Positions 38,801 to 43,397 are shown, numbered from the stretch's first letter. The stretch: DNA of 64,000 bases from Pyrococcus kukulkanii (GCF_001577775.1 NZ_CP010835.1:1682264-1746263), one strand, 5' to 3'. The notes: generated by a model not told the origin, from the letters alone. Translations and numbers: made by a program.

Positions 38801-39004
38801 ATGGCAAGGTGGAACATCTGCTCCTACTGTGGAAAGCCTTTCGAGCCTGGAACTGGAAAGATGTTCGTCAGGAACGATGGAAGGGTGTTCTTCTTCTGCT
38901 CAAGAAAGTGTGAGAGGTACTTCTTCATGGGCAGGAACCCCAGGAAGCTCAAGTGGACCAAGGCTTACCAAGAAGCCAAGCTTCAGAGGGCCAAGAAGAA
39001 GTGA
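38801..39004 (+). CDS. rpl24e: ribosomal protein L24e
   Basis: 67 aa large-subunit zinc protein: [16 protein letters not shown] ... [11 protein letters not shown] (C-x2-C...C-x3-C), with [21 protein letters not shown] precedes the ATG, 5 bp after S28e. In Thermococcales the next gene is, as I recall, usually ndk; here a different AT-rich cassette follows. Confidence 0.98.
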
Positions 39005-39074: not shown

Positions 39075-39097
39075 GTAAACTTAATATAATAGTTTAC
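39075..39097 (+). promoter_or_regulatory. TATA box enclosed by perfect inverted repeat
   Basis: GTAAACT (39075-39081), nine AT bases containing TAATATAAT (39082-39090), then AGTTTAC (39091-39097). The symmetry centres on the TATA of the five-gene cassette, so a bound repressor would block TBP. Predicted transcript start is ~39112, 20 bp before the first start codon. Confidence 0.6.
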
Positions 39098-39132
39098 TGA
39101 AATTAGTAATGATGGCCTTATGGGGGAGGCAA

Positions 39133-39537
39133 ATGAGGAAATTAAGTATTTTTATAGCCCTAGTTTTAGTAACCTCAATAGTAACAAGTGTTGTATTTGC
39201 AACTTCTGAGCTATCTCTTCAAGAAAACACTAAGAAGAATGATTTCCAAGTTCAGGAAATTCCTAGGGATCCCGTAGTAACTGACACAGACAAAATTGGC
39301 GGAGATTTTGATCCTTGGCTTGACTCAGCTTATGCCTATATTAGCGGAAAGGCCAGTCAGTCTAATCCCCCATGGTTATATAACATTGAGAAGTGGGCAA
39401 TAGCGTACCCTAATTGCTACCTTGTTCATACAACTGGTACTCCTGGGACTACTGCCTATTTTATGGCCTATATCCAGGCAGAAACAACATGCGGTGAGTT
39501 ATATGCGGAAATTCACTGGATTGAAGCTAGGAATTGA
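39133..39537 (+). CDS. small secreted protein of unknown function
   Basis: 134 aa. Signal peptide MRKLSIFIALVLVTSIVTSVVFA with probable cleavage after VFA. The mature part starts with a charged Gln/Asn-rich linker, then an aromatic core (DPWLDSAYAYISG, PPWLYNIEKWAIAYPNCYLVH, TAYFMAYIQAETTCGEL). Its only two cysteines (Cys95, Cys120) could form a disulfide outside the cell. ATG 39133 follows GGGGGAGG by 4 nt. First gene of an ABC-transporter cassette, so it may be an exported peptide or a ligand-binding part. No family recognised. Confidence 0.8.
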   Translation: MRKLSIFIALVLVTSIVTSVVFATSELSLQENTKKNDFQVQEIPRDPVVTDTDKIGGDFDPWLDSAYAYISGKASQSNPPWLYNIEKWAIAYPNCYLVHTTGTPGTTAYFMAYIQAETTCGELYAEIHWIEARN

Positions 39538-40588
39538 GCTTTTATTATTTATCTTCCTTATTTTTAATAACTTTAATAACTTTGCTGAAGCTTCTAACTT
39601 ATTTTGGATTAAAGAGGGAGTTTACTTTAAGTATACTGCAAGAGGAGAACATGCTGTAACCATAGGCCTAGAGAATGGGACAATTTATGTTGGTAAATAT
39701 GGAGTTCTCCTATGGAGGATAACCAACATGTCTAATGGATACATAACGGTTAATGTGTCTCTAGAGGTATACAATATTACAGTGGTTTCTCAGAGAATTT
39801 TAGATCCAGACGAAGGCTATAAAAAAGCTATGAAGATTATAGAAGAGCTTAACCTTACCATTAACAGCGATTCTTGCAAATATATTCAGAATACGGAGGA
39901 AGACTTCAAAATATGCAAGACTAAAGAAGCTATTTCTATTGAAACCATAGGAAAGGATTATAGATATGGACTGTACGTGAAAGATAAAAAGGAAGCTGTG
40001 GAAGGTTTTATCTCTTTTTTGCCAAGTATTAATAGGTCAGCAATAGTTAGAATTTCACTTTCTGACAATAGTGTGATATTTAATGGGAAAAAACTTGGAA
40101 TGAATACGTTGTTTATCACAGATCTAAGGATAAAAGGAAAGACAATAATGGACGGATGGTATATAAATAGAGTTGAGATTTTAAATGCTACAATTCATAC
40201 GCGTTTTAGGGATTTTCGTCCCCCTGTGCTCCTTGTTTGGACTAATTTTTATAAGAATTCATCTAATCTTGCATTTTACGACCCTGCTTCGGGAATATTA
40301 ATTGAGGGATATACCCCAGTTTCTCCGATCTGGCTCGCATTTGGTTTTAAATATGTTTTATTCTCGGACAGGGAGCACTTTAAGAAAGCACGTGACCCAA
40401 TCACTCAGAGTAAGGACATTTATGGTTTTGGAATGGTCTTAGAGGACACAAATGCATTTCATTTTGAAAAAGAGGAACTCAAAAATATTAGTATCCCTCG
40501 AGATGCCATCTTAATATTCTTGTTTTCTGTACTAGTTTCCTTGGTGGTGGCTTATGAAATGGCTAAAGGTTCTCACCTGGGAGAGTAG
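39503..40588 (+). CDS. anchored extracytoplasmic protein of the cassette
   Basis: 361 aa. N-terminal hydrophobic segment (IELLLFIFLIFNNFNNF), a ~300-residue beta-rich exterior domain with nine N-x-S/T sequons (e.g. ENGT, NMSN, VNVS, YNIT, LNLT, INRS, LNAT, KNSS, KNIS), and a C-terminal helix (AILIFLFSVLVSLVVAYEMA). It is thus probably exposed at the cell surface and glycosylated. ATG 39503 has GGTGAG 4 nt upstream and lies inside the end of the secreted-protein gene. Two Cys (SDSCKY, KICKT) are close in sequence. Family unknown. Confidence 0.78.
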   Translation: MRKFTGLKLGIELLLFIFLIFNNFNNFAEASNLFWIKEGVYFKYTARGEHAVTIGLENGTIYVGKYGVLLWRITNMSNGYITVNVSLEVYNITVVSQRILDPDEGYKKAMKIIEELNLTINSDSCKYIQNTEEDFKICKTKEAISIETIGKDYRYGLYVKDKKEAVEGFISFLPSINRSAIVRISLSDNSVIFNGKKLGMNTLFITDLRIKGKTIMDGWYINRVEILNATIHTRFRDFRPPVLLVWTNFYKNSSNLAFYDPASGILIEGYTPVSPIWLAFGFKYVLFSDREHFKKARDPITQSKDIYGFGMVLEDTNAFHFEKEELKNISIPRDAILIFLFSVLVSLVVAYEMAKGSHLGE

Positions 40589-41261
40589 TGATCCCCTGAG
40601 AGGATATGTCTTAGTTTTAACAATAGGAATAGTTGCTATATTCTTAAAAATTAGCTTGATAAAAGGGGTATCTTTTATCCTAATGTCTAAACCAAAAGTT
40701 CTTCTCCAGTATTCAATCTTTACGATGTTCTCATTCAAGGCTTATATAGCCTGTAGCCTTGGAATATCCTTTTTGGTTTCACTAGCAATAAGAGGGGAAA
40801 GAGATGAAGGCGGTGTCTATTTCACATATTCCCTTCCTTACAACCCAAGATTGATATTTCTAGCTAAGATAGCATCAGCTTATATTTTATCTCTCACAAC
40901 TTTAACAGTTGTCCATGCCCTATTGTTCTTTTCTCATTTCTCTTCTGAGCCGAGAATTGCATCGATAACTGTGCTCAGATCTTTACCTACTTTGGTTATA
41001 TTTTATGCCATAGTTCTTTTGTATATTGTTGCATTGTCTAGTATTTCTGCATCTTTGCTACCAAACGCTTCAACTGCTGGAATACTGTCATTCTTTCTAA
41101 TATTTGGAATTTCTGACAATATAAGGGAGTTTAATCCCGTGCTGACCCTTCATGATGTCTTTATTAAAAGCAATTATCGTGCTCTACTTCCTTACTTCCT
41201 GGTTTCGATAGTTCTAATTCCCTTATCAATTGAAATAATGTCAAGGAGGGATATAAGATGA
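40554..41261 (+). CDS. ABC-2-type permease of the cassette
   Basis: 235 aa integral membrane protein with about six helices (YVLVLTIGIVAIFLKISLI, AYIACSLGISFLVSLAI, IASAYILSLTTLTVVHALLFF, LVIFYAIVLLYIVALSSISA, AGILSFFLIFGI, LLPYFLVSIVLIPLSIEI). The cytoplasmic loop RGERDEGGVYFTYSLPYNPRLIFLAKI is the typical ABC-2/NosY coupling region. GGTGGTGG before ATG 40554, inside the upstream gene. It pairs with the ATPase at the end of the cassette. Confidence 0.85.
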   Translation: MKWLKVLTWESSDPLRGYVLVLTIGIVAIFLKISLIKGVSFILMSKPKVLLQYSIFTMFSFKAYIACSLGISFLVSLAIRGERDEGGVYFTYSLPYNPRLIFLAKIASAYILSLTTLTVVHALLFFSHFSSEPRIASITVLRSLPTLVIFYAIVLLYIVALSSISASLLPNASTAGILSFFLIFGISDNIREFNPVLTLHDVFIKSNYRALLPYFLVSIVLIPLSIEIMSRRDIR

Positions 41262-41695
41262 AGCTCTGGAAACTTTTTCTTGTAATAATCATTGTAACGA
41301 TGTTCGAGTCCTTTATACTCCAACTTACAGTTAGAGAAAATGATATTGCTTATCCTTTACTTCCCCTAGGATCAATGGAGATCACAGGATTTTATTCTCC
41401 CACATCATCTCTAGTTGATATAACTTTTTCAGGTCAAGGAGATGGGAATTACACTATAATTGACTTAGACAACTTGAGAGTTATACAGAAAGGAAGGTTG
41501 GAAAATAAAGTAGTGAGGATTGCCCTTCAACACCCAGGATATTATGGCATCATAGTAAATGGATCGTATTCTGGAAGTGCAACAATGAAAGTTATTGATG
41601 TTGGGTTTCCTGAAGATAATTGGAGATTTCATCTATTATTCCTTTCCTTGTGTATAGTAGTTTTCTCAATAGGTGTTTGGAGGGAAAAAGCATGA
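41258..41695 (+). CDS. small two-helix membrane protein of the cassette
   Basis: 145 aa. N-terminal helix (LFLVIIIVTMFESFILQL), an exterior beta-sandwich-like domain of ~85 residues (SSLVDITFSGQGDGNYTIIDLDN...HPGYYGIIVNGSYSGSATMKVIDVG), and a C-terminal helix (FHLLFLSLCIVVFSIGVW). Both ends are cytoplasmic. ATGA overlaps at both ends link it to the permease and the ATPase. No family recognised; it may be a substrate-capture or regulatory subunit. Confidence 0.75.
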   Translation: MKLWKLFLVIIIVTMFESFILQLTVRENDIAYPLLPLGSMEITGFYSPTSSLVDITFSGQGDGNYTIIDLDNLRVIQKGRLENKVVRIALQHPGYYGIIVNGSYSGSATMKVIDVGFPEDNWRFHLLFLSLCIVVFSIGVWREKA

Positions 41696-42360
41696 TAGGA
41701 TATTTTGACAAAGTAGATAAGAGGATAGGAAAAGTTGATATCCTGAGAGGAATTTCTTTTAAAATCGGAGAAGGAGTTACGTTGATAGTCGGACCCAATG
41801 GAAGTGGAAAATCAACTCTAATAAAATTGCTAGTTGGATTCTGGAGGCCCACTAAAGGGAAAGTAAAGTTACTTGGAGAAAATCCCTGGAACAATTATAA
41901 ATTGCGACAGAAAGTAGGAATTAGTATTGATCCTCCATCTTTGCCAAAGTATAGGAGAGGGATAGATGTTGTTAAGATTATGGCAGATATAAAGGATGTA
42001 AAAATTGACAACCATTTAGTGAAAAGGCTATTTCCCAATATGGATGCCCTCAATAGAATGATCATTGAGTACTCGGCTGGAATGAGAAAGCGCCTTAGCA
42101 TTCTTTTAGCGTTACTTGGTGAAAATAAAGTATTGGTTTTGGATGAACCTTTTTCGGGTATTGATGTATCTGGTATTTCTGAAGTATCGAAGATTATTAA
42201 GGAAGAAGCTGAGAAGGGAACGAATATAGTAGTTGTCTCACATATGTGGAAGCCCTTGTATGACACGGTTGACAGAGTTGTAGTTTTGGTAGGTGGTGAA
42301 ATTGGATTTATAGGTGATAAGGATGAAGGAATAAAGTTTCTTAATAAGTGGGGTTTTTAA
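41692..42360 (+). CDS. ABC transporter ATP-binding protein of the cassette
   Basis: 222 aa. Walker A GPNGSGKSTL, Q-loop region VGISIDPPSLPKYRRG, degenerate signature EYSAGMRKRLSILLAL, Walker B VLVLDEPFSGID, H-loop VVSHMW. ATG 41692 follows GGAGGG and overlaps the upstream TGA (ATGA). It is closest in layout to ATPases of BcrA/NatA/NosF-type exporters. Last gene of the cassette. Confidence 0.92.
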   Translation: MIGYFDKVDKRIGKVDILRGISFKIGEGVTLIVGPNGSGKSTLIKLLVGFWRPTKGKVKLLGENPWNNYKLRQKVGISIDPPSLPKYRRGIDVVKIMADIKDVKIDNHLVKRLFPNMDALNRMIIEYSAGMRKRLSILLALLGENKVLVLDEPFSGIDVSGISEVSKIIKEEAEKGTNIVVVSHMWKPLYDTVDRVVVLVGGEIGFIGDKDEGIKFLNKWGF

Positions 42361-42401: not shown

Positions 42402-43232
42402 ATGAACGTGCATGCTATTGTGGCAGTGATCTTCTGGTCTACCGTAGCTTCGGCATTTAAGCTTACCCTTTCGAGGCTGGATCCCGTAAGTATGCTCTTT
42501 TATGCCTCCCTGACGTCGACGATAATATTCCTGGGGGCAAATCTTAGAGAGGGTAGGAAGTTTTCTGTAAAGAAAAACCTCCACTCAGCGTTTTTGGGGT
42601 TCATAAACCCCTTCCTGTACTACTTAGTCCTGTTCAATGCATACTCCTTCCTCCCAGCTCAGGAAGCACAGGCATTAAACTACACATGGCCCATAATACT
42701 CGTGGTGTTCTCTTCAGCGTTCTTGGGCCAGCCTTTGACTATTAAAGAGTTCTTTGGCGTTATCGTTGGATTCCTTGGAGCATTGGTTATTGGAACGCAC
42801 GGTAACCTCTCATCCTTAAGCTTTGCAAATCCCCTTGGTGATGCCCTTGCCCTAAGCAGTGCATTGGTGTGGGCCATGTACTGGATCTTCAACCTTAGAG
42901 ACCCCAGGAAGGCTGAGGAGAAGATGTTCTGGAATTTCTTCTTTGGCTCCCTCTATATACTTGGGCTTGGACTCGTAAGGGGTATAAAGTTCGATCCCCT
43001 TGGGGTTCTTGGGGCAGTTTACATTGGAACGTTTGAGATGGGTCTTACCTTCCTTCTGTGGCTTAAGGCGTTGGAGGGGGAAGAGGCTGGAAAAGTTGCA
43101 TCCCTCGTTTACCTCACTCCCGTGCTTTCCCTGGTGTTCATATCAATTGTAGTTGGGGAGAAAATCTTAAAATCAACGCTCCTTGGACTTGCCTTAATTC
43201 TCCTGGGAATAATGCTTTCGAGAAGGGAATAA
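42402..43232 (+). CDS. EamA/DMT-family membrane transporter
   Basis: 276 aa, about ten hydrophobic helices arranged as two EamA repeats (VHAIVAVIFWSTVASAFKLTLSRLDPVSMLFY... and ALALSSALVWAMYWIFNL...LGLALILLGIMLS). Family members export metabolites or amino acids; substrate unknown. There is no ribosome site, and a TATA-like ACTTTAATAAAAC ends ~25 bp before the ATG, suggesting a leaderless mRNA. Confidence 0.9.
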   Translation: MNVHAIVAVIFWSTVASAFKLTLSRLDPVSMLFYASLTSTIIFLGANLREGRKFSVKKNLHSAFLGFINPFLYYLVLFNAYSFLPAQEAQALNYTWPIILVVFSSAFLGQPLTIKEFFGVIVGFLGALVIGTHGNLSSLSFANPLGDALALSSALVWAMYWIFNLRDPRKAEEKMFWNFFFGSLYILGLGLVRGIKFDPLGVLGAVYIGTFEMGLTFLLWLKALEGEEAGKVASLVYLTPVLSLVFISIVVGEKILKSTLLGLALILLGIMLSRRE

Positions 43233-43235
43233 TTC

Positions 43236-43313
43236 TGGTGGGCCCGCGGGGATTTGAACCCCGGACCACGCGGTTATGAGCCGCGCGCTCTGACCAGGCT
43301 GAGCTACGGGCCC
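43236..43313 (-). tRNA. tRNA-Ile2 (anticodon CAT, expected agmatidine)
   Basis: Acceptor GGGCCC pairs with GGGCCC; anticodon loop CTCATAA; T loop TTCAAAT; CCA encoded at 43236-43238. CAT could mean Met, but the other CAT tRNA in this window (53.6 kb) has the intron of elongator tRNA-Met, and the GGGCCC...TAGCTCAG frame is that of archaeal tRNA-Ile. So this is most likely the AUA-reading tRNA-Ile2, whose C34 becomes agmatidine by TiaS. Confidence 0.85.
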
Positions 43314-43321
43314 TTTCCTTT

Positions 43322-43397
43322 TGGCGCCGCCGCCCGGATTCGAACCGGGGACCGCCGGATTAACAGTCCGGCGCTCCACCAGCTAAGCTACGGCGGC
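43322..43397 (-). tRNA. tRNA-Asn (anticodon GTT)
   Basis: Acceptor GCCGCCG/CGGCGGC, anticodon loop CTGTTAA, T loop TTCGAAT, CCA encoded at 43322-43324. Transcribed leftward ahead of tRNA-Ile2 from a TATA box (TTTATAAAG on + strand, ~43422-43430). Confidence 0.97.

Follow-up and report, generated by a model that had tools for sequence, protein, structure and literature searches.

A recurrent Thermococcaceae cassette of a small secreted protein, a surface protein and an ABC-2-type transporter, and its possible role as a toxin-immunity module

The window analysed here is a stretch of 64,000 nucleotides from Pyrococcus kukulkanii. Within it, the interval from the ribosomal gene rpl24e (38801-39004) to an EamA transporter gene beginning at 42402 holds five plus-strand genes, here called g1 to g5. 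They encode a small secreted protein of 134 residues (g1, 39133-39537), a surface protein of 361 residues (g2, 39503-40588), an ABC-2-type permease of 235 residues (g3, 40554-41261), a two-helix anchored protein of 145 residues (g4, 41258-41695) and an ABC ATPase of 222 residues (g5, 41692-42360). Consecutive genes overlap by 35, 35, 4 and 4 nt, and both their order and their overlaps confirm the proposal of an earlier note on this DNA that the five run as one unit. For g1 we prefer the start at 39133 over that at 39109 because GGGGGAGG directly precedes the ATG at 39133; the Shine-Dalgarno-like gggggagg (39122-39129, plus strand) lies 3 nt 5' of this codon and supports it. Going by sequence only, the TATA-like AT-rich stretch cttaatataa (39080-39089, plus strand) is a possible promoter element. 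The cassette holds no maturation enzyme or processing protease, and no genes for a lanthipeptide precursor or a lanthionine synthetase lie nearby, the neighbours being ribosomal protein genes and the EamA transporter gene. Just past the latter, near this variable site, the minus strand carries genes for tRNA-Met and tRNA-Asn (window 43236-43397).

The g1 protein has an N-terminal hydrophobic Sec-type signal peptide, a conserved RDPVVxD motif and a beta-rich C-terminal domain with two Cys. These are C95 and C120, both in the mature part, in keeping with the two Cys described before; N-X-S/T sequons number zero. Homologues of this protein, which we place in class A, were found in 15 of the 94 Thermococcaceae genomes, each directly before g2; one further match, to a short piece at the end of a contig, was left out of the count. 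The predicted structure of g1 is uncertain, with a pLDDT of 79 in the best of five AF2 models and about 50 in the other four, and a Foldseek search of the model against the PDB gave no significant match. The g2 protein combines a signal peptide, an all-beta ectodomain with two conserved Cys, and a C-terminal transmembrane helix (residues 333-359), and it carries exactly nine N-X-S/T sequons, the number given in the earlier note. Its AF2 model, of large curved beta sheets, is a confident predicted fold (pLDDT 91.7) without a significant Foldseek match in the PDB: LolA-like matches were weak and insignificant, and no binding-protein fold was found. That the ABC pair might belong to a known family such as NosDFY is not borne out, g2 having no Pfam match to NosD and a model that is not a beta-helix. 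Neither g1 nor g2 nor g4 matched a Pfam or NCBIfam model above cut-off, as expected from the claim that three of the proteins belong to no known family. The same was true of g1 classes A-D (defined below) in both collections, and sequence searches of the PDB with g1, g2 and the other g1 classes returned nothing above cut-off. Thus, no known toxin family or fold was matched by g1 in Pfam, NCBIfam, or the PDB sequence and fold searches.

The remaining genes specify the transporter. The g3 protein matched ABC2_membrane_4/5 of Pfam weakly, below cut-off, while g4, which is always found between g3 and g5, has a hydrophobic helix at both ends, an extracytoplasmic middle domain and two sequons. The g5 protein is an intact ABC ATPase with Walker A, signature, Walker B and H-loop (ABC_tran match, 1.4e-20). 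Its best NCBIfam model is TIGR03740, the lantibiotic-protection ATPase, at 115.7 bits against a cut-off of 309.75, and a resemblance to NosF is seen as well. As an ATPase of the ABC-2/NosF/LanF-like type, g5 is export- or extrusion-like rather than importer-like.

The cassette is not confined to this locus. With a g3 profile (E<=1e-10), about 130 copies were found, spread over 61 of the 94 Thermococcaceae genomes; a g2 profile matched 61 of the 115 genomes of the phylum, every one of them Thermococcaceae; among those 115 genomes no g2-g3-g4-g5 module was found outside the family. No g2 was found on plasmids, and in a contig scan with g2 the sole matches were three MAG records of Thermococcaceae, of which two were Thermococcus. 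The order g2 (one to four tandem copies)-g3-g4-g5 recurs in about 120 examined loci, which places the cassette far above chance. The recurrence of one gene order at several genomic sites across the Thermococcaceae, which the earlier note had suggested looking for, was therefore found, and with about 130 modules in the family the genes are not orphans of a single species. Indeed, P. kukulkanii itself has a second module, distant from the first and outside the window (L089:5767-9152; G000:C1, ~695.8-699.2 kb), composed of a class B protein and its own g2-g5. We found no paper describing the module, although some of the genes may be mentioned in a survey of antimicrobial systems of archaea that Makarova et al. 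reportedly published in mBio in 2019; g1-g5 cassettes apparently form a large, undescribed module family of the Thermococcales. In two further loci (L093, G042:C4:42000-54000, and L134:5598-7232), g2-like genes alternate in tandem with secreted proteins of ~570 residues, the relative in L134 having 544 residues and PEGA domains. No transporter gene lies between the tandem g2-like genes of L093, which suggests that the g2 fold has other uses too.

What varies between modules is the gene directly 5' of g2, which is often a small protein with a signal peptide. An intact small secreted gene lies just upstream of 68 of 158 full g2 copies; in 16 cases it is short, broken or shifted, and 74 copies have none. 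With the signals removed, the secreted proteins of this slot fall into groups A-E (13, 5, 17, 26 and 5 members) plus two singletons, and the five classes are mutually unrelated (hhalign probability <5% for any pair). Four changes on the g2 tree suffice to place the five classes, each of which is thus tied to one g2 clade; classes do not switch between clades, so that turnover between them is slow, whereas presence or absence of g1 changes 44 times. Arrays typically read g1-g2-g2..., with g1 only before the first g2 copy. In three loci (L139, L176 and L199) two g1-g2 pairs precede one transporter, and in L139 and L176 each g1 has its own g2.

Loss of g1 can be followed directly. The gene is interrupted in L017, L018 and L025 (L018 lying in a fragmented assembly, where a sequencing error is possible), and g2-g5 are open there. 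In eight aligned class A loci g1 is cleanly absent and the leader, AACACCGAAAG..TAATAA..GTAACATTAAGTGCAAAACCCCGTTGGGG, is largely kept together with the position of the start codon, a pattern that reads as deletion of g1. Median dN/dS in modules without g1 is 0.22, 0.20, 0.24 and 0.15 for g2, g3, g4 and g5, respectively, against 0.19, 0.19, 0.33 and 0.15 in modules with g1; for g1 itself it is low (median 0.19), with no sign of positive selection. Because purifying selection persists without g1, the job of g2-g5 needs no g1 in the same genome. Such a job speaks for immunity (or reception) rather than for a machine dedicated to exporting or maturing g1. The idea that the ABC transporter serves to export g1 is thus not supported, all the more since g1 carries its own Sec-type signal. 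In toxin-immunity systems the partner should be kept and selected once the effector is lost, and this is what the broken and deleted g1 genes and the dN/dS values of 0.15-0.24 show.

The class A leader is strongly conserved with or without g1 (L022, L025-L027, L075-L079, L081-L084). It ends with CCCCgttGGGG, immediately 5' of the first start codon, and it is possible that it combines a shared promoter with a hairpin overlapping the ribosome site. A VapBC-like pair, of a PIN-type and a small DNA-binding protein, lies 5' of g2 in the g1-less modules L079 and L081, the PIN gene being shortened in L081.

Where g1 is present, it diverges together with g2. The partial correlation of g1 and g2 pairwise distances given g3 is 0.81 in class A, 0.83 in class C and 0.66 in class D (permutation p=0.0005). 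Nine class C arrays have extra g2 copies. In these, g1 correlates with the adjacent g2 (r=0.93) but not with the last (r=-0.05), whereas it is the last g2, unlike the first, that tracks g3-g5 (0.61-0.74); the equivalent tandem control in class D was non-discriminating (0.86 vs 0.87). Because of these array correlations and the paired duplicates, it appears that g1-g2 is a cognate, exchangeable unit placed before a resident g2-g3-g4-g5 operon. The pairing of an effector with its adjacent partner, as toxin-immunity systems would have it, is seen here as co-divergence and not as binding. Since linkage alone, with g1 and g2 exchanged together, could give such a correlation, we can only infer that the two proteins bind. 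We propose that g2, surface-anchored in its AF2 model and co-diverging with g1 by distance correlation, is the cognate partner or immunity protein of g1.

The scenario that we favour, at about an even chance, is that the cassette is class A of a Thermococcales module in which g1 is a toxin, g2 its surface immunity protein and g3-g5 an ABC transporter for immunity or extrusion. The g1 protein would be exported by Sec via its own signal peptide and, once released, harm competing relatives as a small beta protein that probably contains a disulphide. At the surface of the producer, g2, anchored by its C-terminal helix, would bind and neutralise its cognate g1, and g3-g4-g5 would be a generic ABC-2 transporter ridding the producer membrane of g1, or of its damage, much as LanFEG does for lantibiotics. 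Extra tandem g2 copies could then be orphan immunities left behind as new g1-g2 pairs entered the front of the operon. Somewhat more tentatively, and at slightly under an even chance, the scenario may extend to the whole family as a bacteriocin-like armoury, in which a single immunity architecture, of a cognate beta-fold surface protein and an ABC-2 transporter, serves unrelated secreted proteins, and effector-immunity pairs are exchanged as units before a resident transporter operon. The toxicity of g1, its binding by g2 and the direction of transport are what we infer. Several observations weigh against this scenario: no toxin family or fold is matched, the cassette encodes no enzyme for maturation or processing, adjacency could account for the co-divergence, g1 classes turn over slowly, the dN/dS of g1 is low, and g2 copies also occur in L093 without a transporter. 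Of the layout put forward before, that of a bacteriocin-immunity or signalling system with its own exporter, the immunity-like logic has gained support from the cognate pair, the orphan g2 copies and the loss of g1, while the dedicated exporter has not.

It is possible, if unlikely, that g1 instead serves as a secreted signal for which g2 is the receptor at the surface, with g3-g5 as an ABC transporter for sensing or uptake and orphan receptors listening in. A signal and its receptor must match, so that pairs would diverge together, and the co-divergence, the orphan g2 copies and the surface anchoring of g2 fit signalling equally well. Signalling, for which most of the evidence is the same, is the chief rival of the toxin-immunity reading. 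However, the cassette contains no kinase or regulator, the g5 ATPase is of an export- or extrusion-like type and no binding-protein fold was found. A role in envelope assembly without any conflict, in which g1 would be structural or enzyme-like and g2-g5 would fold, anchor or release it in a NosDFY- or Lol-like manner, is rather improbable. While the large curved beta sheets of g2, with their insignificant LolA-like matches, and the NosF resemblance of g5 point that way, g2-g5 stay under selection after g1 is lost, the g1 slot holds any of five unrelated proteins and g2 resembles NosD neither in sequence nor in model. It is also quite doubtful that g2-g5 are a general pump for resistance to extracellular stress or antimicrobials, with g1 as an occasional secreted accessory such as a decoy or adaptor. 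Many modules do lack g1 (74 of 158 g2 copies), but g1 co-diverges specifically with the adjacent g2 and the two are duplicated in tandem as a pair.

The history of the locus bears on a last alternative. The cassette is more AT-rich than its surroundings, as noticed earlier, with a GC content of 0.357 against 0.473 and 0.472 in the flanks. The genes rpl24e and EamA are neighbours in 9 of 9 genomes of the genus and lie 48-121 bp apart in six; the nearest relatives have an empty site of 48-49 bp. The cassette sits between them in the present genome (G000) and in G006, and what remains at this site in G007 is 101 codons of g5, including a stop. Because of the G006 cassette and the G007 remnant, repeated loss from an ancestral insertion explains the pattern better than recent gain. 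In G007 (L125, reverse strand, between rpl24e and EamA) a gene for 711 residues lies beside the remnant, the N-terminus of its product resembling a domain of the restriction-endonuclease type. Class A modules elsewhere in the family occupy different sites: the most frequent neighbour is a ferritin-like gene, and in other cases it is a mechanosensitive-channel-like or a Cbf5-like gene (names assigned by reading the sequences). In most Thermococcus loci the GC content of the module equals or exceeds that of the flanks or host. That one species recently gained an unrelated AT-rich operon of no special function, as the low GC (0.357 vs 0.47) and the empty site might suggest, is thus highly improbable given the occupied site in G006, the about 130 modules in the family and the host-like GC in Thermococcus, and recent transfer, proposed earlier from AT content, is rejected on the g5 remnant at the same site in G007.

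To our knowledge, very few archaeal bacteriocins are known and none has been characterised from the Thermococcales. The module includes protein families that are undescribed. If the toxin-immunity reading is true, it would provide dozens of testable effector-partner pairs in one genetically tractable family, of which T. kodakarensis is a laboratory organism, along with five new families of secreted proteins and, in g2, a fold that has no PDB match, and contact-free killing or kin signalling among hyperthermophiles would become directly testable.

Several known systems resemble the cassette in part. NosDFY shares the exterior protein, ABC-2 permease and NosF-like ATPase, whereas g2 has neither NosD repeats nor a beta-helix in its model. 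The VARTIG modules are likewise restricted to the Thermococcales, made up of genes for secreted or membrane proteins and suspected of a role in conflict (PMC8416519). Unlike the cassette, whose core is g2-g3-g4-g5, these hypervariable modules begin with the large Ig-domain protein arCOG07710, and ABC is not mentioned in the text of the paper (PMC8416519). No large Ig-domain protein of the arCOG07710 type stands at the 5' end of the cassette, where the first gene encodes 134 residues, and the unit has no large protein. Polymorphic toxins with orphan immunity arrays similarly place cognate pairs in front and keep orphan partner genes in tandem, but the cassette lacks a large trafficking domain or known toxin domain and includes an ABC transporter in the unit. 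Lactococcin 972 has a Sec leader and an ABC immunity operon, and the cassette is like it in that a small Sec-secreted beta protein is followed by genes for a membrane protein and an ABC transporter, but unlike it in lacking an FtsX-type permease. Its Pfam and NCBIfam models were unmatched by g1 classes A-D, and the Lcn972 structure is absent among the best 50 fold matches listed for the g1 model. Since lipid II is not known from archaea, the target must differ from that of lactococcin 972. The latter is a linear bacteriocin acting on lipid II (PMC8538875).

The closest parallel is lantibiotic immunity by LanI and LanFEG, for example NisI/NisFEG (PMC5786555, PMC8538875), in which the surface protein LanI binds the lantibiotic and the ABC transporter LanFEG expels it (PMC5786555). 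The cassette likewise has a small secreted product, a cognate surface-anchored protein, whose binding is presumed here, and an ABC-2 transporter of putative immunity function, and the best curated model of g5 is TIGR03740. However, it has no lanthipeptide precursor or modification enzymes, g1 being a beta protein with a Sec signal; one permease and the two-helix g4 stand in place of LanE and LanG; g2 is anchored by a C-terminal transmembrane helix rather than as a lipoprotein; and the TIGR03740 score of g5 is far below cut-off (115.7 vs 309.75). The best reading is that the cassette would work like LanI-LanFEG, by analogy and not as a homologous system or a member of that family.
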